Assembly (NCBI GenBank): GCA_029260055.1
Contig: JAJDDX010000366.1
Coordinates: forward strand, 1-32,896
Length of the DNA stretch: 32,896 bases
Origin: Phycisphaerae bacterium
GTDB taxonomy: Bacteria; Planctomycetota; Phycisphaerae; UBA1845
Direction: 5' to 3'
This document shows, in pieces, positions 7,320-32,779 of this stretch. How positions within the stretch are numbered: the stretch's first letter is position 1; the number at the start of each line of letters is the position of its first letter. The notes beneath the pieces are model-generated. The model was not told the DNA's origin and did not search any database. It saw only the letters and a list, made by a program, of their open reading frames with translations. The position numbers and the translations under genes are program-made.

Positions 7320-8030
7320 TTGAGCGGCGACCACGGCAACCCAGTTCTGACCATCGAGCGGCACGCCTCCAGGTCCGCGCAGCCGGCGACGCTCCTGACG
7401 CTGAACCGGCCCGACAAGCGAAACTGCCTGTCCGAGCGGCTGATGGTCGAACTGACTGCGGCGGTCAATCAGAACGGCGACCGGACGCTGTTCATCACGG
7501 GCAGCGGCCCCGCCTTCTGCTCCGGCCTCGATCTGACGTACCTCCGAGGCGCAATCGAGCAAGACGGGTCAGCCGCAGCCCCACTGCGGCTATTGCGGGA
7601 GCTATACGAAGCACTCAGGACTCATCCCCTGCCGACGTTGGCCCTGGTCAACGGGCCGGCGGTCGGTGGAGGCGTCGGGCTTGCGGCCGCGTGCGATCTC
7701 GTCGTGGCGGTTCGAAGCGCCACCTTCACGTTACCCGGCGGCGCCTATGCCTTGCTCGCGGGCGTCGTCGTGCCGCTGCTGAAGTCGCGCACGGGCTCGG
7801 ATGGACCGGGTGACACGGGCTGGCTGGGCACGACAGTGACGTCAACGGACGCCAAGACACTCGGCCTCGTAGACCGAATCGTCGATCACGGACCTGACCT
7901 AACCCCCGAAACCGCATGCCGCACGCTAGCTGAGGCCGGGCTCCTCGATCGGCAACCAACCGTGCCGCGCGGCGCCGCGAGTCTCACCGCCGAGTTGGAC
8001 GAGGCCTTCCAAGCCGCCACACGCCCCTGA
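7320..8030 (+). CDS. Enoyl-CoA hydratase/isomerase (crotonase) family protein
   Basis: This 236-residue crotonase-fold protein has LNRPDKRNCLS near the start, the oxyanion-hole segment GSGPAFCSGLDL (61-72), and NGPAVGGGVGLAAACDLVVA (111-130). Crotonases act on acyl-CoA esters, for example in beta-oxidation. At the position where hydratases carry a catalytic Glu (LPE...G), this protein reads TLPGGAYALLAGVV (Gly140), so standard hydratase activity is doubtful; an isomerase, hydrolase or altered activity is possible. It is slightly short (family about 255-265). The start is a TTG at 7320 with AAAGGA seven bases upstream; no in-frame ATG would keep the N-terminal strand. It overlaps no neighbour and shares a divergent control region with the DUF6958-like gene. 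Confidence 0.88.
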   Translation: MSGDHGNPVLTIERHASRSAQPATLLTLNRPDKRNCLSERLMVELTAAVNQNGDRTLFITGSGPAFCSGLDLTYLRGAIEQDGSAAAPLRLLRELYEALRTHPLPTLALVNGPAVGGGVGLAAACDLVVAVRSATFTLPGGAYALLAGVVVPLLKSRTGSDGPGDTGWLGTTVTSTDAKTLGLVDRIVDHGPDLTPETACRTLAEAGLLDRQPTVPRGAASLTAELDEAFQAATRP

Positions 8031-8049
8031 TTCACGACGAGCAGTGACT

Positions 8050-8081
8050 CGATTCTCTCTGTGTGCTCTGTGGTTAAGAAA
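8050..8081 (-). repeat. Dispersed ACCACAGAG-type repeat
   Basis: On the minus strand this reads TTAACCACAGAG followed by CACACAGAGAGA. Sequences of this type occur in intergenic DNA of many unrelated bacteria and, when translated by mistake, give TTEHTE-like peptides; the false frame here indeed gives TTEHTERIE. It lies between convergent genes. Confidence 0.55.
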
Positions 8082-8100
8082 GGTCGGCGGATACGCCGCT

Positions 8101-8937
8101 TCACACCGTCGGATGACTCAACGTCAGGCCCAGCGTCTTCTTGATCAGGTCGTTGCGCACCCGCTTGCCGCGATGCTCGACCCCGCCCGGATCGGGCTTC
8201 CATCGAACCGCGGGCAAGCCCCCAGCGGCGATCACCCGGTCATACAGCTCCCGCCGCGTCTCGGGCTCGTCACCACAGAGATTCAGCACACCCGTAAATG
8301 GCGAATCGACAAGCGCCGCCAGTGCCGAAACGACGTCATTGATGTGAACCAGGTTGAGATAGCGGCCGCCGCCGTCCTTCTCGCTCCCCGCTGCGGCCTT
8401 GATCCGCGCAACCAGGTCGCGCTGCGGACCGTGAATGCCCCCGATACGCACCGCCGCTGCGCTGACACCGGGTCGACCCTGCAGACCGTCCAGAAGCACG
8501 CACTCGGCCTCGAGCAACAATCGCCCCTTCTCATCCGCCGGCTCGGGCGGCGACGCTTCGTCGACCCACCCGCCGTCGTCCCGCCCATAGACGCGCGTGG
8601 ATGACGTGTATAGGATCCGTCTGACGCCCGTGTCGGCCGCCGCGTGCAAGACGGCTCGGGCACCCTCGACGTAGACCGCGCGATAGTCGCTCTTTCGCCC
8701 CGCGCCCACGGCAAGCACCACCGCGTCGCACCCCGTCACCGCATCATGCAACGCATCCGCTTGCTCGATCTTCACCAGCCGCGGCGTGACTCCGGCAGCC
8801 GTCAACTCATCCACACGCGACGGCGTCGTGGTCGTCCCGACGACGGTCCGCCCGGCGCCAACGAGCAGCCGCGCCAGTGCGGTACCCACGTATCCACACC
8901 CGACAACCGCCACACTTTGCATGGTCGCGTCGTTCAT
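8101..8937 (-). CDS. NAD(P)-dependent epimerase/dehydratase-like SDR (YeeZ-like)
   Basis: This 278-residue protein begins with the Rossmann dinucleotide motif VAVVGCGYVGTALARLL (Gly13, Gly15, Gly18) and continues as an atypical extended SDR: VVLAVGAGRKSDYRAVYVEG, then YTSSTRVYG with the Ser/Thr and Tyr of the active-site region, and LNLVHINDVVSAL. The last is typical of extended SDRs closing over an NDP-sugar or similar substrate. The overall pattern (SSTRVYG, no YxxxK) resembles the E. coli YeeZ group, whose substrate is not firmly known. It starts 30 bases after the dnaE stop codon on the same strand, so the two are probably co-transcribed. ATG 8937 was used; ATG 8922 is an alternative that would still keep the glycine motif. 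No strong ribosome binding site distinguishes them. Confidence 0.85.
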   Translation of the reverse strand: MNDATMQSVAVVGCGYVGTALARLLVGAGRTVVGTTTTPSRVDELTAAGVTPRLVKIEQADALHDAVTGCDAVVLAVGAGRKSDYRAVYVEGARAVLHAAADTGVRRILYTSSTRVYGRDDGGWVDEASPPEPADEKGRLLLEAECVLLDGLQGRPGVSAAAVRIGGIHGPQRDLVARIKAAAGSEKDGGGRYLNLVHINDVVSALAALVDSPFTGVLNLCGDEPETRRELYDRVIAAGGLPAVRWKPDPGGVEHRGKRVRNDLIKKTLGLTLSHPTV

Positions 8938-13213: not shown

Positions 13214-15175
13214 TCACTCGCCGCCGGCGCCAAAGATGCCCTGGAACGCCGCCACGTCCGCCAGGTCCACGCGCCCGTTCGCGTCGAAGTCGAACGTCGC
13301 CAGGCAACCGGCCGGACCGGGCGCCGCGGCCGGACCGCCTTCGGACAAACACCGTCCGAAGCGAGCGGTATCGACCGCGTCAACGAGGCAGTTCAGATCG
13401 GTGTCGCCCATGGGGCCGCCGTTCGGCTGGACCGGCGTGCCCGGCGGCGTAAACGCACACTCATCCTCGCCGTTGTTCACGCCGTCGCCGTCCACGTCGG
13501 GGTCGCACGCGTCAATCGCACCGTCGCCGTCGTAGTCCGGCTGGCAGTCGTCGGGTAGGAAGTTCTGGTCGCAGTCGAGGCTCGAGCCGTTCGCGATGTC
13601 GCACGGGTCCGGCTGACCGTTGCTGTTGCAGTCCGACTCGCACTCGTCGGGCAGGTTGTTGCCGTTGCAGTCCGTGCTCGTCTGGCTCGCGATGTCTTCA
13701 CTATCCGGCACGCCGTTGTCGTTGCAGTCGAACGCGCCGATCCGCAGGTAGTACACGTCCTGCCCACCGGTGAACGTAGCTGAATACGCCACGCTCGCCC
13801 CGAAGTTGTCCGAGACCATGTCGTAGTAGTCGCCGATCTTGTTCTGGCTCGGCCAGCCGATCACGCTGTTGAACACCTCGCTGACCGCTATGTTCGCCGA
13901 CCAGGTGACGCCGCCGTCCGTCGATGATGCGTAGAAGAGTTGGCAGAGCTCGGCGGCACCGCTGTGGCGGGTATCGTTCCAGATGACATCGATTCGCCCG
14001 TTCGGCGCAGTCGACATCGTGCCCATCCACTGGTACGCGCCGTTGCCGATCGGATCGTCATTGACGCGAACCGGGGCGCTCCAGGTGACGCCGCCGTCGG
14101 TGCTGCGTGCGAACATGACATCCAGCGGATCACCGCCCGGTGGATCGACCGACGACAGCAAGTAGACGTTGCCGCGGTTCACACTCGTCGAGTGATCGGT
14201 GGCCACCCACACCTGGCCCAACAAGCCTCCGGGGTTGGGCGGGCCGCCGAATCTACCGCCTCCCCCGAGGTAGACGGTCGTCGCAAGTTCAAACGCCGCC
14301 GTTGTCAGCGGCACGCCGGGGTCCTGAAGGCTCGACGACTTGACGACGCCGAACCCGCCGGTCGACGCGAGACCAGCGACATAGACTTCGCCGTCCGGGC
14401 CGACCGAGAGCGTGCCCCATCGCGGACTGAGCGGAATCTGGATCGGCGTCTCCCATAGCAGGCCGCCTTGCGTGGAGCGATTGAACGTGGCTGCGCCGCA
14501 GCAGCCGGCGTTAATGCTCCACGCATGGTAGATGTTCCCGCGGCCGATGCCGTCCGTCCGGTCGATCGTCATCCACTGCTTGTCACCGCCGAAGGCGAAG
14601 ACAGCGCCGCCCCACGTTTGGCCGCCATCGGTCGAACGGAAAACCTCTGTGCCGAACGCGCCGTTCGGCACGCTCAGGCTGTTGTAGTAGAAGTTACCCT
14701 CGGCGTCGAAATCGAGCACCGGGTCACTGCGGAACGTGCCGCGTTCAATCACATCGGGAAAGGTCCACGTCTGACCGCCGTCCTCGCTATAGCCCCAACC
14801 CGCTTGGCGGAAACTGTTGTGGATCGTGTCGAACTGACGCCAGCCGATCGCAATCCGGGTCGGATCGGTCGGATCAACGGCGATCGACGGCTCGTTGCCG
14901 GCGTCCCACAGGATGTTGTTCCCGTTGGCATCCACATTCACCTGTACGCTCGCGAACGACCCCACCACGCTTCGGCCGGCGGGCGACGTCTGCGGCTCCG
15001 CAAAGCCCGTCGCCGGCGGCGTCGAGTACTCGTCCGGCAATTCGGCGTGCGTGGGCGGCCGGCTCACTTGCGGCGGGACGGGCCCCATCCCGCCGACATC
15101 GCTGCCTTGGACGAAAATGAACGCAGTGCACACGGTCACGCAAACGCCGCGTCTGATTCGATGCTGGTATTTCAT
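13214..15175 (-). CDS. Secreted BNR/Asp-box beta-propeller protein with calcium repeats and dockerin-like tail
   Basis: This 653-residue protein starts at ATG 15175 with GAGAGGTG just upstream. A signal peptide is visible: basic MKYQHRIRRG, then a hydrophobic stretch to about residue 24. The body carries Asp-box motifs of sialidase-like propellers: SEDGGQTW (130-137), STDGGQTW (181-188), STDGGVTW (358-365) and STDGGVTW (418-425), plus a weak STQGGLLW. Residues 483-573 are Asp/Asn/Cys-rich calcium-type repeats (DCNDNGVPD, DCNGNNLPDEC, DCNSNGQPDPC). The C-terminus (about 590-653) is dockerin-like, ending DANGRVDLADVAAFQGIFG, nearly the same as the beta-helix protein at 24603-28145. No sialidase catalytic set was identified, so an enzyme activity is not claimed. 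It is probably an exported structural or sugar-binding surface protein. Confidence 0.88.
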   Translation of the reverse strand: MKYQHRIRRGVCVTVCTAFIFVQGSDVGGMGPVPPQVSRPPTHAELPDEYSTPPATGFAEPQTSPAGRSVVGSFASVQVNVDANGNNILWDAGNEPSIAVDPTDPTRIAIGWRQFDTIHNSFRQAGWGYSEDGGQTWTFPDVIERGTFRSDPVLDFDAEGNFYYNSLSVPNGAFGTEVFRSTDGGQTWGGAVFAFGGDKQWMTIDRTDGIGRGNIYHAWSINAGCCGAATFNRSTQGGLLWETPIQIPLSPRWGTLSVGPDGEVYVAGLASTGGFGVVKSSSLQDPGVPLTTAAFELATTVYLGGGGRFGGPPNPGGLLGQVWVATDHSTSVNRGNVYLLSSVDPPGGDPLDVMFARSTDGGVTWSAPVRVNDDPIGNGAYQWMGTMSTAPNGRIDVIWNDTRHSGAAELCQLFYASSTDGGVTWSANIAVSEVFNSVIGWPSQNKIGDYYDMVSDNFGASVAYSATFTGGQDVYYLRIGAFDCNDNGVPDSEDIASQTSTDCNGNNLPDECESDCNSNGQPDPCDIANGSSLDCDQNFLPDDCQPDYDGDGAIDACDPDVDGDGVNNGEDECAFTPPGTPVQPNGGPMGDTDLNCLVDAVDTARFGRCLSEGGPAAAPGPAGCLATFDFDANGRVDLADVAAFQGIFGAGGE

Positions 15176-15509
15176 GAGGCACCTCTCGGGATGTAGGGGC
15201 ACGCGTGCGTCGAGGCCGCGCCCGTCAGGTCGGAATGTCGATCGGGCCGTGCGCCATCGTCACTAGCCCTAGTCGATGTACCCCGGTGGTCGGCAACCAG
15301 TGTACCACGCCGACGGCGCGACCACCAAGAAAACCCCGTTTGCCGTCACCATGGCCGGAAACCGACCACGAGGCCCGCAAGGCGGCATGCCGGCCTGATC
15401 GGCGCCACGCGCCCTGTTTCGCCACACCATCCCAACCAGGCAACCGGACGATTCCTTCCCACAAATCCGGTCGATCTTGTTGGGAACCAGAGACGCGGCG
15501 ATCACCGCC
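15176..15509. other. Intergenic region without recognised features
   Basis: These 334 bases separate the BNR protein start from the ribD stop. I see no gene, no member of the hairpin-word family and no clear promoter; the BNR gene must have its promoter here, but no good -35/-10 pair stands out. Confidence 0.5.
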
Positions 15510-24602: not shown

Positions 24603-27600
24603 CTACTCACCCGTGAACGAAAGCTGGAACGCCGCCACGTCGGCCAGATCGACTCGCCCGCTGCCGTCGAGATCAAGGCACTCGCATCCATCCGGCGGCA
24701 CGCTTCCCGGCCCCGTCAAACACCCCGCGAGTTCGGTGTAGTCGGCAAAGTCCACATCGCCGTCGTGCGCCGCGCCGCCGTCCGACGCACAGTCTCCCGG
24801 ACGACGCTCGTACGCACCCATGTCCACGATCGGGCCCGGTGGCCCGGGATTGCCGGTGTCCACCATCCGCGGGTCATCCACAAAGCGGCCGAACCCATCG
24901 AGGTCGAAAGGCATCGGCTCGGCCCTGTCTCCGTCACCGTCGAGATCGCCCGCATCAGCCGGCACGCCGACGTTGTCCCCGGCGTCAATGATCGGCGAAT
25001 CCAAAGACAGATGCAGGTCGCCGTAGTCATCGTCGTCGGTGCCCCATACACCGTCGACGCCGGGATCAGGCGTGCGAGCGAACACCGGATCGATCGAGAC
25101 GTTTCCGTCCGTCCCGGTGGGATCCTCGCCAAACCCACCGTAGTCGTACTCGTCGTTACCGTAGACGCAGTTGTGGCGCCACCCAGGCATGTCACCGTAC
25201 GGAAGAACCCCTGACGAATTGAACGCAACGAGGTTGTTGACGATCGTCGTCGACGCGAGGCCCTGCAGCCACAAACCACCGCCACGGAAGTAGCCGGCAC
25301 GATTACCCGCGATCGTGTTGTTCACGATCGTCGGAGCAGACTGGATATACACGCGGATTCCGCCGCCATCGCCGTCCGTCCTGTTGCCCGTGATCGCGTT
25401 GTTCGCGATCGTCGGGGAAGACACCCACAGTTCCAACCCGCCGCCGCCATAGCCAGCGCTGTTCCGCGTGATCGTGTTGCTCGTGATAATCGGGGAAGAA
25501 TCCGACAGTTCCAGCCCACCGCCGCCGTGGTAGAGGGTGCTATTGTCCGTGATCGTGTTTCTCGTGATCGTGGGCGAGGCATACTGCAGGCGCAGCCCGC
25601 CGCCACCGCTGATAGCGCTGTTGCCCGTGATCGTGTTGTTCGCGATCGTCGGGGAGCAGCCCCACAGGTACAGCCCTCCACCGGAGAGCGCGCTGCCGCC
25701 CGTAATCGTGAAGCCATCGATTGCGCTGACTCTATAGCCGGCTCGCCCGGTCACCACCGACCCTTGTTGCTGACCGTCGAGGACCGTAACATTGGCGACC
25801 CAATCCCGTTCGGACCGCACGCTCTCCGTGCCGGCGAAGCCGCCGTATAGATACGCGTAGGGATGGAGTGTGATGCACTCTCCGTATGTGCCGGCTTCAA
25901 CCCATACTTCGCCTCCCGATGCCGACGCCGCATCAATGCCGGCCTGCACCGTGCGCTTCGCCGTACCCCACGTCGAGCCGTCGTTCGCGTCGTCGCCTTC
26001 AGGCTCGACTCGTATGGTCGCATACGGCCCCGCCGGCCACGACGTGCCATCCGACTCATCAGCGCCGATGTCCACGCTTCCGCCCGCAGGCAGGATGCGG
26101 GGGTCCCCGTCCACGTCGAAGTCGCCCCAAGCGTCGGCGGTATTCCCGGCATCCACGCAAGGGGAATCCGGCTGAAGATGCACGTTCCCGTACCGCGGTC
26201 CGGCCAGCCGCGGATCAGCGGAGATGTTACCGTCCGTCCCGGTGGGGTCGGCCACACCCCAGTAGTCGTACGTGGTGTTACCGTATACGCAGTTATGGCG
26301 CAGCGAGGCGGTGCCATAGGACCACAACCCGGAGGAGTTGAACGCAACGATCGCGTTCGCAATCGTAGGCGTGCATTCAACGAAATACAGCCCGCCGCCG
26401 TCTTCGCCGGCACCGTTGTTCGCGATCGTGCTGTTCACGATCTTCGGTGCGCCCGACGTCACATACGCGCCGCCACCGTCGCGGCCGGCGCTATTGCCGA
26501 TGATGGTACTGTTCGCAATCCTTGGCGAACTGTATCTCCCGTAGATACCACCGCCGTCCCAGCGGGCTCCATTGCTCCTAATCGTACTGGTCGCGATTGT
26601 CGGGGAGGAATCACGCAGGTAGAGCCCGCCGCCGTAGTTCTCCGAGTTGTTATCCACAATTGTGCAGCTTCTGATCTCGGGCGATCCCACTGACACGTAG
26701 ATGCCGCCGCCCGTGCGTGCGCTATTGCCCGTAATCGTGTTGTTGGCAATCGTGGGGGAGGCGTTGCCCAAGTACAGCCCGCCGCCATACTGCCCGCCGC
26801 CACCCGTGATCGTGAAGCCGTCGATACGAGTCGTGTCGGTACCTACGTTCTGCGCGATCACCACCGCCCCTTGCTCTTGACCGTCAAGGATCGTGATGTT
26901 GGCGACCCAGTCCCGCTCGTCACGCAAGGTCTCCGTGCTGGCGAAACCGCCGTACACGTGGGCGTAAGGCTTCAGGGTGACGCACTCCTCGAACGTGCCG
27001 GCTTGGACCCACACGTCACCACCCACCGCGGAAGCAGCGTCAATGCCGGCCTGAACTGTCCGCTTGGCCAAGGCCCAGGACGAGCCGTCGTTCGCGTCGT
27101 CTCCTTCAGGGCTGACCCGCACGATCGTATAGGGCCCGGCCGGCCACACCGTACCGTCCGACTCGTCAGCACCGATGTCCACGGTTCCGTTTGCAGGCAG
27201 AATGCGAGGGTCCCCGTCCGCATCGAAGTCGCCCCACGCGTCGGCATTGGCTCCCGCGTCGACGCAGGCCGAGTCCGGCTGAAGGTGCACGTCGCCGTAC
27301 CGCGAGTTCGCAAGGTGCGGGTCGACGGAGATGTTCCCGTCCGTGCCAGTGGGGTCGGGAACTCCGTCGTAGTCAAACGCCGTATTGCCGAAGACACAGT
27401 TGTGCCGTAGCGTGGGGGCGCCGTCGCTTGTCCACTGATGGACCCCGGACGAGTTGAAGGCGACGACCGTGTTCACGATCGTGGGAGACGATGCGTACAA
27501 GTCCAGCCCGCCGCCGTAGGCCGCATTGTTGTTCGTAATCGTGTTGTTCGCCATCACTGCGGAAGAGTTGTACAGGTACAGTCCACCGCCTTGGGACGCA

Positions 27601-28145
27601 TGGTTGTTCGTGATTGTGTTGTTCGCAATCACTGCGGAAGAGTCGTACAGGTATAGCCCACCGCCGTCGTCGAACCCGCGGTTCTTCCTGATACGGTTGT
27701 TCGCGATCGTCGGCGAGGAGTCGAACAGGTACAATCCGCCGCCATCGCCCGCGTCGCCGCCCGTAATCGTAAACCCGTCGATCCGAGTTACCTCGGTCGC
27801 GCCGACTGGACCGGTCACCACGCTGCCGCTCTGATCTCCATCGAGGATCGTCTCGTTGGCCGACCAGTCGCGCTGAGACACCTCCGTCTCCGTACCCGCG
27901 AAACCGCCGTAATGCCCGACCCCCAACGCCAGCGTGAAGTTCCCCACATACGTGCCAGCCGCCACCCAGATCTGATCCCCGGGCGCCGCAGCCACCAACG
28001 CCGGAGGCAACGCGTCGTACGCCGTCGCCCACGACGCCCCATCGCCACCCGGCGGAGCATCGCCATCAACATGGTAAACGGTCTGTGCGGCGACGATCGG
28101 GCCGCAAATCAACACAGCCACCAGTGCAGTCGCGATGCGTACCAT
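24603..28145 (-). CDS. Secreted three-module parallel beta-helix protein with dockerin-like tail
   Basis: This 1180-residue protein starts at ATG 28145, with GGAGGG seven bases upstream. A signal peptide ends near VAAQ (residue 21). Three similar modules of about 320-400 residues follow (about 22-340, 341-710 and 711-1115). Each has an N-terminal cap (EGDDANDGSSW in modules 2 and 3), an IDGFTITGG strand, then repeats of SPTIANNTITGN and GGGLYL coils, and ends VDIGADESDG in modules 1 and 2. This is the right-handed parallel beta-helix fold of pectate lyase-like and adhesin proteins. The end, 1118-1180, is dockerin-like, DLDGSGRVDLADVAAFQLSF, nearly the same as in the BNR protein. No catalytic residues were identified, so a surface-adhesion or binding role is more likely than an enzyme. 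The gene's DNA is highly repetitive, which favours recombination. Confidence 0.92.
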   Translation of the reverse strand: MVRIATALVAVLICGPIVAAQTVYHVDGDAPPGGDGASWATAYDALPPALVAAAPGDQIWVAAGTYVGNFTLALGVGHYGGFAGTETEVSQRDWSANETILDGDQSGSVVTGPVGATEVTRIDGFTITGGDAGDGGGLYLFDSSPTIANNRIRKNRGFDDGGGLYLYDSSAVIANNTITNNHASQGGGLYLYNSSAVMANNTITNNNAAYGGGLDLYASSPTIVNTVVAFNSSGVHQWTSDGAPTLRHNCVFGNTAFDYDGVPDPTGTDGNISVDPHLANSRYGDVHLQPDSACVDAGANADAWGDFDADGDPRILPANGTVDIGADESDGTVWPAGPYTIVRVSPEGDDANDGSSWALAKRTVQAGIDAASAVGGDVWVQAGTFEECVTLKPYAHVYGGFASTETLRDERDWVANITILDGQEQGAVVIAQNVGTDTTRIDGFTITGGGGQYGGGLYLGNASPTIANNTITGNSARTGGGIYVSVGSPEIRSCTIVDNNSENYGGGLYLRDSSPTIATSTIRSNGARWDGGGIYGRYSSPRIANSTIIGNSAGRDGGGAYVTSGAPKIVNSTIANNGAGEDGGGLYFVECTPTIANAIVAFNSSGLWSYGTASLRHNCVYGNTTYDYWGVADPTGTDGNISADPRLAGPRYGNVHLQPDSPCVDAGNTADAWGDFDVDGDPRILPAGGSVDIGADESDGTSWPAGPYATIRVEPEGDDANDGSTWGTAKRTVQAGIDAASASGGEVWVEAGTYGECITLHPYAYLYGGFAGTESVRSERDWVANVTVLDGQQQGSVVTGRAGYRVSAIDGFTITGGSALSGGGLYLWGCSPTIANNTITGNSAISGGGGLRLQYASPTITRNTITDNSTLYHGGGGLELSDSSPIITSNTITRNSAGYGGGGLELWVSSPTIANNAITGNRTDGDGGGIRVYIQSAPTIVNNTIAGNRAGYFRGGGLWLQGLASTTIVNNLVAFNSSGVLPYGDMPGWRHNCVYGNDEYDYGGFGEDPTGTDGNVSIDPVFARTPDPGVDGVWGTDDDDYGDLHLSLDSPIIDAGDNVGVPADAGDLDGDGDRAEPMPFDLDGFGRFVDDPRMVDTGNPGPPGPIVDMGAYERRPGDCASDGGAAHDGDVDFADYTELAGCLTGPGSVPPDGCECLDLDGSGRVDLADVAAFQLSFTGE

Positions 28146-28723
28146 GAAGAACCCTCCAGGGTGAGCCAACCATGTCATCTCGAGTCGGTCGAGTCGAACG
28201 CGCGCACCGCGCGCGTCCGCTCCATCCCTAGGTCCGGACTGGCCGCCGATTTCTTACACCCGAAGTCCATCTTTCTCGGCTTTTTTCCAGCGATGCCTTT
28301 TTCAGGAGGCAAATGACGATTCCGTCGCGAATCCAAGCGGCTCGATCAGCCGGCGGGTGGCCCATGTCCTTGGGACATGGGGGAGACGATGACGGGCGTT
28401 CGACAGCCCCACCGCCTGCCGACGTCAGCGAGTCGTGATTATCGCCTTCCCCACCTCCAGAGGAGGTGGGCCACCCGTCATCAGTGCCGGAACGTTCGCC
28501 CGGTGTGCAGCGCTGGGTCCCCCGTCAAGCGGAGCAACGTAGCTTGTCCGTGCCACAACTCGCGGCCGTTGCCGGTTCATCACCCGACAGGGCCTGGCGC
28601 CGCGCCTGCCGCCAAGTGGCACTGACGGAAAGCAACCTGCGCCGCTTCCTAAGTCCGAGAACATCAGCCCGCACCGCCCATCGACCGCCCGCAACCTGGA
28701 CGTAAGCGGCTCGCCTTACTACT
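28146..28723. other. 578-base divergent region with REPIN copy 3
   Basis: No real gene was recognised. The 122-bp composite lies at 28355-28476. A strong ribosome-binding-like AGGAGG with an ATG at 28313 opens a 41-codon frame that ends in the repeat, probably by chance or as a remnant. A damaged GGACAAGCGG hairpin is at about 28514-28555. No clear promoter was found for the two divergent genes. Confidence 0.7.
28355..28476. repeat. REPIN/MITE-like 122-bp composite (copy 3)
   Basis: Starts GGGTGGCCCATGTCC and ends GGAGGTGGGCCACCC, exactly 122 bp, in the same orientation as copy 2. The outer 37-38 bases on each side are close to the other copies. The middle (about 28400-28438) is more different than copies 1 and 2 are from each other. 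Confidence 0.88.
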
Positions 28724-31117
28724 ATGATGGGCGTAGGGCCAGGGGAAAATCCAAACTCGATTAGGACGGCAAGAGCGGTGCAAGCTTTCCAGAAGCCTCG
28801 CCACGTCATCGCGCGCGTCGCGCGCATCGCGATGACACTATTGTTCGTGTGCGCGGGAGCCGCATCGGCCTCTGCCCAACCGGTACCCACCACGTTGCAG
28901 GACTTCTTCCTCAACGGCACGCAACCGGAAACGCTCACCGATCCGCTGCTGGCCAGCACGGACGACTGCATCGCCTGCCACTCCGGCTACAACGAAAACC
29001 TGGCACCCTACGAACTCTGGCAAACCAGCGCCATGGCACAGGCCATGCGCGATCCCATCTTCCACGCCGCCCTCGCCATCGCGGAACAAGACGCAGCCTT
29101 CGTCGGCGACCTCTGCCTCCGCTGCCACTCCCCCATCGGCTGGCTCGAAGGAAGAAGCATCCCCACCGACGGCTCGGGCCTGCGCGAGGGTGACTACGAC
29201 GGCGTAAGCTGCCACGTCTGCCATCGCATGGTCGACCCGGTCTTCGACGCGGCCGAAAACCCGCCCGACGACGTCCCGATCCTCAACGCACTATTGATCG
29301 ACCCGAACAACGACATCCCACTCGACGCCCACAGCGGACAATACGTCATCGACCCGCTGGACCGCCGCCGCGGCCCGTTCGACATGGTGCCGTTCTTCGG
29401 CATGCACGAATGGCGACGCTCGCCCTATCACCAGGAATCAGCCATGTGCGGCACCTGCCACGACGTATCCAACCCGGCCTTCGAACGCGTCGGTGCCCCC
29501 ATCCCGGCACCGACCGATACGTACGCGCTAAGCGTCGACGACGCACCGAACCCGTCGCAAGACAAATACGACCAGTTCCCCGTCGAACGCACCTTCAGCG
29601 AGTGGTCGCAAAGCGACTTCGCGCTGGCACCGATCGAGATGGGCGGGCGATTCGGCGGCAACAAGACAGCCGTCGCCACCTGCCAGGACTGCCACATGCC
29701 TGACGCTTCGGGCGTGGCCTGCTCGATCCCCTCCCAGGCGATCGACCGCGACGACATGCCGCTGCACCAGTTCCTCGGCGGCGCGACCTGGATCTTCGAT
29801 GCCATCTTGAACCTCGACGTGACCCAGGAACTGTGGGGACCGGGCGAACTCTCCGCCCTCCTGCCCAACCAAGTAGCAGCCGCCCAGGCGCGGAACATCG
29901 CCTTCCTGCAGGCAGCCTCGGACATGGAGCTGACCATCACCGGCGAGACGCTCACCGTTCGCATCATCAACCAGACCGGCCACAAGCTGCCCACCGGTTA
30001 CCCCGAGGGACGACGAATCTGGGTGAACGTGCGTTTCTACGACGGATCGGGCTTGCTTCTCGGTGAGCACGGCGCCTACGACGACGCCACCGCCACGCTC
30101 ACCACCGAAGACACCAAGGTCTACGAAACGAAGATCGGCGTCGACGCGACCGTCTCAGCCGCCACCGGCGTGCCCATCGGCCCGTCCTTCCACTTCGCCC
30201 TGAACAACGTGCGATACAAGGACAACCGCATCCCGCCGAGAGGCTTCACCAACGCCGGCTTCGCCTCCGTCCAGGCCGACCCGGTGGACTATAGCTACGC
30301 GGATGGCCAATACTGGGACGACACCGACTTCGCCATGCCGTGCGATGTCATGTCCGCCGAGGTCACGCTCTACTACCAAACCAGCGCCAAGGAGTACATC
30401 GAGTTCCTGCGCGACGAGAACACCACGAACACAGCCGGCGACGTGCTTCACGCCCAGTGGGTCGCCACCGGCATGAGCGCGCCGATCATCATGGACCAGG
30501 CGACGCTCGTCTACGGCGACTGCAACGGCAACGCCCGGCGCGACACCTGCGACATCGCCGACATGACCGAACAGGACGACAACGGAAACGCCATCCCCGA
30601 CGCCTGCGAAACCCCGACGGTAGCGGCTCAGGGCGGACGATACATCACCGTCACCCCGAACGACCCGGGCCAGTCGCTCGAATTCGCCCTCGTCCTGACA
30701 TCCCCGGACTTCCCCTGCCTGGAGAAATACCTCGACGCAACCGGCGCCCTAGTGGATACGCCGACCTATCAGACCGTGGCGAACTGGGGCACCATCGGCA
30801 TAGGTCAAGCCGAGATCGTGCCGGGCACTCAGTATGATGTGCAGGTCGAGTACAACGGCGGCGTGCGTTCGAACATCGCAAGTGCGACGACATGGCTATG
30901 GGGTGACGTGGATCAAAACGACTTGGTCAACTTCACCGACATCAACCTGGTCGTCCAGGGCTTCCAAGGCGATTTCAGCCAGGCATCGCTGGAGGCGGTC
31001 GACCTGCACCCCTGCACGCCCAACGGCCTGATCAACTTCCAAGACATCAACGCCGACGTCCGCGCCTTCCAAGGCGCCCCCTACACCGAAACCAACTGCC
31101 CGCTCCCCTGCCCGTAA
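28724..31117 (+). CDS. Secreted pentaheme cytochrome c with calcium repeat and dockerin-like tail
   Basis: This 797-residue protein has five c-type heme motifs: CIACH (82-86), CLRCH (131-135), CHVCH (163-167), CGTCH (242-246) and CQDCH (320-324). A hydrophobic signal segment MTLLFVCAGAASASAQ (37-52) shows export to where heme is attached. Residues 408-440 (INQTGHKLPTGYPEGRRIWV) are typical of multiheme cytochrome-associated beta domains. A calcium-type repeat (DCNGNARRDTCDIAD, DDNGNAIPDAC) lies at about 599-628, and the C-terminus has two EF-hand-like dockerin loops (DVDQNDLVNFTDINLVVQGF and NGLINFQDINADV). It probably moves electrons outside the inner membrane. The start is uncertain: ATG 28724 gives a long n-region and has no good ribosome binding site, and GTG 28778 is an alternative. 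Confidence 0.87.
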   Translation: MMGVGPGENPNSIRTARAVQAFQKPRHVIARVARIAMTLLFVCAGAASASAQPVPTTLQDFFLNGTQPETLTDPLLASTDDCIACHSGYNENLAPYELWQTSAMAQAMRDPIFHAALAIAEQDAAFVGDLCLRCHSPIGWLEGRSIPTDGSGLREGDYDGVSCHVCHRMVDPVFDAAENPPDDVPILNALLIDPNNDIPLDAHSGQYVIDPLDRRRGPFDMVPFFGMHEWRRSPYHQESAMCGTCHDVSNPAFERVGAPIPAPTDTYALSVDDAPNPSQDKYDQFPVERTFSEWSQSDFALAPIEMGGRFGGNKTAVATCQDCHMPDASGVACSIPSQAIDRDDMPLHQFLGGATWIFDAILNLDVTQELWGPGELSALLPNQVAAAQARNIAFLQAASDMELTITGETLTVRIINQTGHKLPTGYPEGRRIWVNVRFYDGSGLLLGEHGAYDDATATLTTEDTKVYETKIGVDATVSAATGVPIGPSFHFALNNVRYKDNRIPPRGFTNAGFASVQADPVDYSYADGQYWDDTDFAMPCDVMSAEVTLYYQTSAKEYIEFLRDENTTNTAGDVLHAQWVATGMSAPIIMDQATLVYGDCNGNARRDTCDIADMTEQDDNGNAIPDACETPTVAAQGGRYITVTPNDPGQSLEFALVLTSPDFPCLEKYLDATGALVDTPTYQTVANWGTIGIGQAEIVPGTQYDVQVEYNGGVRSNIASATTWLWGDVDQNDLVNFTDINLVVQGFQGDFSQASLEAVDLHPCTPNGLINFQDINADVRAFQGAPYTETNCPLPCP

Positions 31118-31828
31118 GCCGGCCTTGAGCCTCCGCAGCCAGCCCGGAGCGCCGCAGCCGGCCGAAAGCACCCACAGCCAGCGATAGCGAATGTAGCGCC
31201 GCCCCTTGTGGGCGGCGCAGCATGCGTCTGAACACCCGGCGCCGCGTGCCGCCGGTGGCTCTGCTCTGGGTGCCACTGGTGTCTTGCCCACCAGTGCCGC
31301 GACATCTCCTCAGCCCGAAGGGCTGACAGATAGTAGCCGTCGGCAAGTCCCGGTACCCCGGGACGCCGCCCACTGTCACGAAGTCCAAGAATTCGCCCCC
31401 GGGCCAAGGCCCGCCGCTCGCACCGAGCCACAGCCCACAATTCGCCGTACAGGTGAAAACCCTGATGCGACGGTGCCCTCGATCCGAGACAATAACTCGG
31501 TCATGCCCCGTCGGCGCAACCGCCCGATCGGGCGGGACCATTAGCGTTCGGACAGTCGCGGCTCCGGCTTGGGTCCATCGCGTCTTGCAGAGCGACGCGT
31601 GAACAGCCCCTTAACTGCGAGAGTTTGGGCTCCGCGGCGAGGCCGCTGCATCCTCGGCGTGGTCGGTCGACGAGGAGCCTGCCCGATTCACCTGCCGCCC
31701 GAAGAAGTTCGCCAGCTTCGTCCGGCACCGAAGTCTCGCAAGGGTGGCCGTACCATCCGTATCTGGGATGCAGATACAGTGCAAGAGCGTTCTCCGGACA
31801 AGTCGAGGATTCGATTGAGAGGGTGATA
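31118..31828. other. 711-base region of repeats and relict-looking DNA
   Basis: No gene was recognised. It contains a loose tandem of GCAGCCAGCC-like units (about 31136-31187), four stem-loops (31197-31219 GCGCCGCCC / GGGCGGCGC; 31268-31297 the GGGTGCC CACTGGTG word; 31310-31326 TCAGCCC-GAA-GGGCTGA; 31520-31535 the perfect palindrome CCGCCCGATCGGGCGG), and about 290 bases before the metallo-beta-lactamase-fold gene that contain short frames with no protein-like pattern. The ribosome binding site GAGAGG at 31818-31823 belongs to the next gene. Confidence 0.7.
31197..31326. repeat. Cluster of three palindromic modules
   Basis: GCGCCGCCC-CTTGT-GGGCGGCGC (31197-31219), GGGTGCC CACTGGTG / CACCAGTG (31268-31297) and TCAGCCC-GAA-GGGCTGA (31310-31326) follow one another after the cytochrome stop codon. 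Only the middle one matches the shared GGGTGCC word. Confidence 0.75.
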
Positions 31829-32779
31829 ATGTTCCTTCACGAGAGACGACAGCACACGGTTGGCCAGGGGTTCTTTCACTCTGGCTATCTTCGGATTGGC
31901 TCCGGCGAGTTCTCGTACGTCTACGACTGCGGATCCGAAAACACGGACACGCTGGCTCGGGAAATCAACGAGTTCGCGAATCGACGACACAAGCGACCAG
32001 GCTTGAATGTCCTGTTCATTTCGCACTTCGATAGCGACCACGTCAACGGACTTGATCGGCTGCTCTCACTCGTGAAGACCAAAACGGTAGTCGCGCCGTA
32101 TTTGGAGCCATGTGAGCGTTTGTTGCTCGTCGCGGACGCAGCGGATTCCGGTTCCGTAGACGGGACATTGGTACAGTTCGCCGCCGACCCCGTTCGTTGG
32201 CTCGGCGACCGGGGCGTTGAAGTCGTGCTGTTCGTGAAAGGTGGCGAAGAGGAGGAAGGGCCTCGTATCGCACTCCCAGAACCACAGCCTTGGCCGCACT
32301 TCCAGGATCCTGAGCGCCGAGATACTCCCATCGATCTTGACTGGAATTGGCTGAAGAGAAGAGCGCTGGAAACAGGATCTCCAAGAACAACTAGGACGAG
32401 TACAGGTGCCACAACGGAGTCTTTTGTTCTACCGCATCACGTTGCACTGCCGCTTCTAGGAGCCCGTCGTTTGCCCATGGATTGGGCGTTTCTGACTTTC
32501 GTCCATCCGGAAGGCGCCCTCGTCCGTCGATTCAGAGACGCAGTACGTAGGGAGTTTCGACGGACACCGTTCGACAACAAGCGTTGGACCAAGGCATGTA
32601 ACGAGTGGCTCGTTGACACGGTTCAGGACCGATCATGCAGAGAGCGACTCGCAGGCTGCTACGCGGTGATTCGACGAAACCGCAATTTGACCTCGATGTC
32701 GCTGTATAGTGGCCCAGTAATTGATGGGGTTGCAGATGGCTGGCTATATGCCTTTAGCGCGCGCCCTGAACATCCATAG
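31829..32779 (+). CDS. Metallo-beta-lactamase-fold hydrolase, possibly cut short by an insertion sequence
   Basis: This 316-residue protein starts at ATG 31829, with GAGAGG six bases upstream; an open frame back to 31625 is rejected. Residues 1-35 (LHERRQHTVGQGFFHSGYL) lead into YVYDCGS and then LFISHFDSDHVNGLDRLL, which is the HxxxDH metal motif of metallo-beta-lactamase hydrolases. The fold includes nucleases, quorum lactonases and thiolesterases, so the substrate is open. The rest lacks the further HxH, H and D ligands in an obvious form, suggesting a divergent or partner-dependent enzyme. Base composition is visibly less GC-rich than its neighbours, which hints at transfer. The stop TAG at 32777-32779 is directly next to an insertion-sequence end, so the C-terminus may be artificial. 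Confidence 0.8.
   Translation: MFLHERRQHTVGQGFFHSGYLRIGSGEFSYVYDCGSENTDTLAREINEFANRRHKRPGLNVLFISHFDSDHVNGLDRLLSLVKTKTVVAPYLEPCERLLLVADAADSGSVDGTLVQFAADPVRWLGDRGVEVVLFVKGGEEEEGPRIALPEPQPWPHFQDPERRDTPIDLDWNWLKRRALETGSPRTTRTSTGATTESFVLPHHVALPLLGARRLPMDWAFLTFVHPEGALVRRFRDAVRREFRRTPFDNKRWTKACNEWLVDTVQDRSCRERLAGCYAVIRRNRNLTSMSLYSGPVIDGVADGWLYAFSARPEHP

Follow-up and report, generated by a model that had tools for sequence, protein, structure and literature searches.

The window, i.e. the whole analysed stretch of 32,896 nucleotides, is contig C297 of a 7.6 Mb Phycisphaerae genome assembled in 500 contigs, and carries an open reading frame (ORF), of uncertain start codon, for a pentaheme cytochrome extended by a C-terminal tail (Table 1). 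The presence of five CxxCH motifs in the first 325 residues, as stated in the preliminary description of this DNA, was confirmed by reading of the ORF and by a shuffle test, in which 20,000 permutations of the same residues gave two motifs at most; the other five frames contain none. A hydrophobic run at about residues 35-51, ending in ASASA-QP, resembles a signal peptide when judged by eye, with a likely cleavage after ASASA. What had been described as a single beta-rich domain turned out to be two, one Ig-like and belonging to the cytochrome, the other FN3-like and belonging to the tail, and the two calcium-binding modules are better described as a dockerin-like pair, of which loop 1 is canonical while loop 2 has three extra residues and a cysteine. 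The DCNGN spacer, with which the tail begins, was absent from that description. A scan of the gene for a promoter and a terminator found nothing, and the idea of a conserved operon was rejected, since the final map placed none of the flanking ORFs in a cluster. Elsewhere in the window (31625-32779, + strand) there is an ORF of metallo-beta-lactamase fold (PF00753, over cut-off), which also matches anti-phage MBL families, though weakly.

Table 1. Features of the pentaheme cytochrome (PHC) gene, in window coordinates
Feature	Position	Strand	Residues and remarks
Pentaheme cytochrome CDS	28724..31117	+	797 aa plus stop
N-terminal stretch with signal-peptide-like hydrophobic core	28724..28876	+	1-51; by eye
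PHC head	28883..30523	+	~54-600; conserved across the 80 loci kept; structural match 5ZE8
Heme motif 1, CIACH	28967..28981	+	82-86
Heme motif 2, CLRCH	29114..29128	+	131-135
Heme motif 3, CHVCH	29210..29224	+	163-167
Heme motif 4, CGTCH	29447..29461	+	242-246
Heme motif 5, CQDCH	29681..29695	+	320-324
Ig-like C-terminal domain of head	29900..30538	+	~393-605; contains TGHKLPTGYPEGRR
DCNGN...DACE spacer	30515..30610	+	598-629; thrombospondin-3-like by eye
FN3-like domain of tail	30611..30901	+	~630-726
Dockerin-like pair	30902..31075	+	727-784; loop 1 728-739, loop 2 760-774
CPLPCP C-terminal end	31097..31114	+	792-797

The pentaheme head and its relatives

A scan of genome contigs confirmed 180 loci with relatives of the head, the best 80 of which were kept. 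Nearly all of these 80 come from Planctomycetota metagenome assemblies, 41 of them labelled with a Phycisphaer- taxon, and exactly five CxxCH motifs are found in 79, the exception (L041) being cut by the contig start. The head is present in 45 of 294 genomes of the phylum at E <= 1e-40, and in 34 of 51 genomes of the family at E <= 1e-60, the own genome being counted in both cases.

The head belongs to the PHC (c552/ExtKL-like) group. A model built from an alignment of 81 head sequences (A2; pLDDT 93.2, pTM 0.92) had a single Foldseek match in the PDB at E <= 0.001, 5ZE8 (E 7.3e-14), the cytochrome c552 of Thermochromatium tepidum, which is pentaheme by its title. With VIA-align the two structures gave a Z score of 22.4 and an rmsd of 3.0 over 338 aligned residues at 24% identity, the next row being at Z 9.0. 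When the head profile was compared with solved sequences, 5ZE8 was found as well (E 5.9e-5), its HxxPTG element being aligned at low score. Thus the window head possesses the five CxxCH motifs and the overall fold of the solved member, and also the C-terminal Ig-like domain with a conserved HxxPTG that characterises the group. It differs by being longer (about 550 residues against a chain of 435), and because the match stops at residue 435 of 435, c552 is without such a tag as the window protein carries. The paper on cable bacteria places ExtKL, Gsu2801, sPHC and lPHC, i.e. PHCs of cable bacteria and Geobacter, in a pentaheme family with an Ig-like domain, a layout shared by the window head; it also describes sPHC as structurally homologous to c552, counts sPHC and lPHC among the cytochromes with at least one five-coordinate heme, and reports truncated-hemoglobin fusions for lPHCtX, where the window protein has a docking-type tail instead (PMC11976967).

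Outside the heme motifs, two histidines, at positions 348 and 420, are invariant in the 81 sequences of A2, and three others are nearly so (His 228 in 76, His 236 in 75 and His 490 in 77 of 81); at column 276, a histidine in 73 of 81 sequences, the window protein has an asparagine. Narrower or different assignments were considered. The ExtKL equivalog model NF040886 gives the window protein 16.2 bits (E 0.0029) against a curated cut-off of 250, and a homologue from another genome of the family, L161, also remains far under that cut-off (E 0.00016). The MtrC-like domain PF22113 comes close to its threshold (29.5 bits for 30) and was not adopted because the match spans only residues 76-169. As for 6i5b, which is entered as 'Uncharacterized protein' and which we take to be OcwA, it was set aside as closest relative, since it ranks behind 5ZE8 (E 1 with phmmer, 0.0054 with the profile).

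The tail and the proteins that carry it

The tail (residues 598-797) was modelled from 26 sequences (alignment A1, i.e. the window tail and 25 of the 26 tail-bearing ORFs presented below, the fragment L105 being excluded), with a pLDDT of 92.6. Its residues 26-134 match the FN3 fold (best Z 9.1, rmsd 2.3, 86 aligned), and many FN3-titled domains occur among the 50 matches listed; this is modest support, because the FN3 fold is a common one. No dockerin structure was identified among these 50 matches, but as the FN3 domain fills them, this does not speak against a dockerin fold. In the dockerin-like pair, loop 1 and both helices of the two-loop layout are present and the ligands of loop 1 are well kept in A1 (Asp728 in 24 and Asp739 in 26 of 26). 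Loop 2, however, runs over 15 residues from Asp760 to Asp774, versus 12 in the canonical loop, and contains a cysteine, Cys764, in 24 of 26 sequences, so the pair is dockerin-like rather than a textbook dockerin. Two further cysteines mark the end of the tail (Cys792 in 24 of 26, Cys796 in all 26). Neither Dockerin_1 (PF00404, gathering threshold 22.9 bits) nor TSP_3 (PF02412, 25 bits) was reported by Pfam for the window protein at E <= 0.1, and the type I dockerin, as recognised by Pfam, was accordingly set aside. The best solved sequences for the tail are dockerins and one serine protease chain, all of them weak matches (E >= 0.016). Structures of the CipA dockerin are matched weakly too (E 0.019-0.34). 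In the X-module/type II dockerin layout of CipA (2b59, 3kcp), the dockerin pair is C-terminal and follows an Ig-type module; the window tail has a similar order, with weak sequence similarity, and differs by the cysteine in loop 2 and by the CPxPCP end.

At least 26 other ORFs of the genome carry the same tail (E < 1e-35, about 50% identity), a lower bound since the own-genome stretches were selected from a match list; 17 further ORFs gave weak or partial matches, which in two cases were confined to the spacer region. With one exception, the tail ends at most 7 residues from the C-terminus (25 of the 26 ORFs), the exception being L104:4243-11511, where another 176 residues follow. A Pfam scan covered 20 of these 26 ORFs. 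Peptidase domains passed the Pfam cut-off in eight of them, belonging to families S8 (L094, L099, L089), C25 (L091, L092), M28 (L095), M10 (L111:1933-4686) and Trypsin_2 (L090). For seven others, no match to a Pfam family reached E <= 0.001 (L096, L102, L103, L093:1038-4088, L107, L104:628-4215 and L106), which means that much of the cargo of the tail is of unassigned type. It had been suggested to look for other multiheme proteins with the same tail: one of the listed tail-bearing ORFs has CxxCH motifs, and it has two of them. It encodes, on contig C487, a protein of 1417 aa (L111:4842-9092) that combines GBD_T9SS_assoc, two cytochrome c domains and a window-type tail, a second heme protein with this tag. 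On the window contig, no second match to the tail was found among the 150 of 318 candidates that were scored.

At the level of the order, the window tail is present (E <= 1e-30) in at least 32 of 114 genomes, the own genome included and 27 candidates per genome having been scored; 29 of these genomes are in the family of the window. Four genomes (G001, G002, G009 and G010) have the tail and no PHC at E <= 1e-60, from which it follows that head and tail are independent of each other.

Tails are exchanged among the homologues

Among the best 80 of the 180 head loci, 62 show a dockerin-like pair at the end of the cytochrome (60 assigned by a script, plus L014 and L034 on visual inspection), 17 have another, longer tail (about 105-170 aa) in which no dockerin pair is evident (that of L020 runs off its contig), and one, the 57%-identical homologue L009, has no tail. 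The complete spacer-FN3-dockerin tail of the window was recognised by eye in none of these 80 loci. A second tail-less homologue, L136, was found in the phylum sample. The preliminary description would have been contradicted by close homologues that lack the tail and have a clearly periplasmic role; homologues without a tail do exist, but none that is both close and clearly periplasmic was found. A set of 50 PHC ORFs from other genomes of the same family, which overlaps the 80 loci and was classified by eye, leaving out the fragments of G342, includes 42 dockerin-like tails and two resembling IPTL-CTERM (L161 and L229); of the rest, L218 has a spacer and an FN3-like part cut off by the contig edge, and L198, L199, L221, L222 and L231 are of other or unclear type. 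The end of L218 was considered as a window-type tail and not counted as such, because the A1 profile gave no match in it.

The IPTL-CTERM sorting domain (TIGR04174) is of interest here since a similar end occupies the tail slot in L161 and L229, though the window protein itself ends differently. In L161 it scores 13.4 for a cut-off of 20.5, and L229 was assigned by eye only. Such ends follow a similar spacer in L161 and, also under the model cut-off, in L192 of the own genome, while the cut-off is exceeded in L196, again of the own genome, and in one glucose/sorbosone dehydrogenase-like (GSDH) protein of G003. The latter genome has three PHCs, one with an IPTL-like tail and two with dockerin-like tails, so a single genome can use several tags. 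The own genome also has three PHCs with three tails: that of the window protein, another dockerin-like pair (on contig C484) and acidic double-disulfide repeats (on C409). The gene for the third (L109:7415-10165) lies, as judged by eye, downstream of a CusB/CusA-type efflux-like pair.

In 60 loci with dockerin-like tails, we compared the tail of the cytochrome with those of other proteins of the locus (similarity meaning an alignment score of at least 60) and with those of cytochromes from other genomes having a head identity below 70%. Another protein with a similar tail was present in 28 of the 60 loci. In 20 of these 28, the tail of an unrelated neighbour scored above the best compared cytochrome tail of other genomes; in the remaining 8 it did not. 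Modular exchange of the tail among the cytochromes, together with its spread over unrelated cargo, is thus established. These results, i.e. occurrence on at least 26 other ORFs, peptidases in 8 of the 20 scanned and exchange in relatives, agree with the tail being an address module, as predicted from sequence, and so support in part the earlier proposal of a surface-attachment tail. Another part of that proposal is not supported: the association of the cytochrome with the BNR-repeat and beta-helix proteins of the window (13214-15202 and 24603-28178, both on the - strand) in a cell-surface complex was set aside, because their tails, dockerin-like with a VDLADVAAFQ element, appear by eye to be of a different class, nearer to that of the PHC paralogue of C484, and because none of the 150 candidates scored (of 318) gave a second match to the window tail on this contig.

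What the tail may do for the cytochrome

Since the same tail is found on secreted-type proteases and on other proteins, the cytochrome is predicted to be an electron carrier that is brought to the outer envelope or displayed on the surface of the cell. Our preferred reading, which we consider probable, is that of an exported PHC-group cytochrome whose lineage-specific and exchangeable address or docking tag holds it at the outer envelope or surface. According to this reading, the protein would be loaded with heme as a c-type cytochrome and exported from the cell; its five hemes would relay electrons, and one of them may be open at one site, in line with proposals made for other PHCs. The last 200 residues would take no part in the electron chemistry and would act as a tag employed on many proteins of the genome, keeping the cytochrome in place either by binding of a partner or by recognition during export. 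Against this reading stand the 8 of 28 tails that are nearer to the cytochrome tail of another genome, the two tail-less homologues, the 17 of the best 80 (of 180) loci with a different tail, the IPTL-CTERM score under the cut-off in L161, the seven of 20 scanned tail-bearing ORFs that lack a Pfam family, and the periplasmic location predicted for PHCs of cable bacteria. If it is right, then a group of cytochromes so far described in purple bacteria, in Geobacter and in cable bacteria sits in the envelope of Planctomycetota by way of modular tags, and surface redox chemistry becomes testable in this phylum. The exchangeable slot would moreover offer a route to the display machinery, the reader of the tag being expected to covary with the tags across lineages.

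The tail might work in two ways, each of which we regard as a tentative possibility. It could be a working dockerin that binds cohesin scaffolds outside the cell and so places the cytochrome among secreted proteins, in the manner of the 'planctosome', a cohesin/dockerin model proposed from lacustrine planctomycetes (Nemodlikiaceae; PMC6461901). The genome has at least seven cohesin ORFs, six found over the cut-off and one more recognised by Pfam (L150:12463-14652), and on contig C468 the genes of cohesin/HYR proteins are lined up with those of proteins whose C-terminus is the window tail or a related one. One of the proteins there (L150:8858-10855) unites cohesin, HYR and Dockerin_1, the parts of the planctosome 'adaptor' (PMC6461901), and the weak matches to CipA dockerin structures (E 0.019-0.17) also point this way. 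On the other hand, Dockerin_1 is not reported for the window tail, whose loop 2 is longer and has a cysteine; three of the scanned cohesin ORFs carry a Dockerin_1 match of their own, which makes the pairing ambiguous; and cohesins are few relative to the number of tags. Dockerin-like tags and a cohesin/HYR/dockerin protein are thus common to the planctosome model and this genome, whereas an FN3-like domain with a non-canonical dockerin-like pair sets the window tail apart; the planctosome cargo consists of peptidases, and the word cytochrome does not occur in the main text of that paper (PMC6461901). In ANME archaea, which have many dockerin and cohesin proteins, ABC-transporter binding proteins, not cytochromes, are given as common bearers of dockerins (PMC9012536). 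In the open-access literature, supplements excluded, we found no paper on dockerin-tagged PHCs. The region C468:33000-50000 (L150), where cohesin, HYR and Ig proteins adjoin window-tail proteins, is a candidate surface-scaffold cluster in its own right. Alternatively, the tail could be no binding module but a signal for sorting, recognised by the machinery of secretion or anchoring as are T9SS C-terminal domains or exosortase tails. Its extreme C-terminal place in 25 of 26 ORFs, the C25 peptidases among its cargo and the IPTL-CTERM-like ends, below cut-off, behind a similar spacer in L161 and L192 would fit such a signal; it is less easily reconciled with the 176 residues that trail the tail of L104:4243-11511, or with the lack of a match to SprA_N (T9SS) in the genome, although the control genomes likewise gave none.

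Two further explanations concern the cytochrome itself. It may be an ordinary periplasmic electron carrier, with a tail that is a neutral or stabilising domain spread by recombination, which we find rather doubtful. A periplasmic location is predicted for the PHCs of cable bacteria (PMC11976967), ExtKL is described, with reference to another study, in fractions of both the outer and the cytoplasmic membrane (PMC5877670), and L009 and L136 do without a tail; yet a dockerin-like tail is kept in 62 of the best 80 (of 180) homologues, and the greater likeness to an unrelated neighbour's tail in 20 of 28 loci is not what this explanation would lead one to expect. Less credible is a terminal reductase at the surface, the hemes of which would pass respiratory electrons out to a mineral or humic acceptor. 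A role of extKL in selenite reduction and in growth on Fe(III) has been described (PMC5877670), and the genome has an excess of the heme-codon pattern (1061 matches, where the reversed pattern gives 565) as well as one ORF containing 28 CxxCH motifs. A porin of the MtrB/PioB type, however, had no match in the genome in a search that was restricted to this type and whose control matched once, below cut-off; and a Pfam scan of seven other proteins of the window revealed neither a porin nor a cytochrome. Of the earlier proposal, it is the address tail that is retained; electron transfer to an outside acceptor would be a conjecture, against which stand this porin result and the predicted periplasmic location of PHC relatives. 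The ORF with 28 CxxCH motifs (L151:4074-7550, on C20) encodes 1158 aa with a start that looks like a lipobox, and the ORF behind it (7575-8480) looks like a ferredoxin reductase, both by eye.

Returning to a tagged cytochrome held at the envelope, its neighbours offer a candidate for the electron donor. BLAST located a GSDH protein at no more than about 6 kb from the cytochrome gene in 11 of the best 80 (of 180) loci, PF07995 being confirmed by Pfam in two of them, L033 and L034. From a background of 45 PF07995 matches in 20 genomes (~96.6 Mb), about 0.45 would be expected by chance in 80 loci of 12 kb, a rough figure since the loci are related, some flanks are short and the genomes differ. 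The tail class of the GSDH, judged by eye, agrees with that of the cytochrome in all 10 readable loci, L050 ending before the tail. This agreement could merely reflect the commonest tag of each lineage. BLAST found no GSDH neighbour in the window, and the single GSDH of the own genome (C221) has a tail related to that of the window protein. For some relatives, this PQQ-type sugar dehydrogenase next to the cytochrome is the leading candidate for the donor. A surface relay from a secreted dehydrogenase of this type to the pentaheme cytochrome, both held by exchangeable lineage-specific tags of the same class, seems to us an unlikely extension; in such a relay the dockerin pair, FN3 plus dockerin, another beta-type domain and IPTL-CTERM may interchange while the redox heads stay. 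Finally, directly downstream of the PHC genes of three genomes there is a gene for a protein of some 300 aa, marked by GLPAPxGFLEPxHFHxEY close to the C-terminus (L110:5427-6344 on the - strand, L073:7850-8827 and L200:13277-14323), a possible partner of that branch of PHCs.
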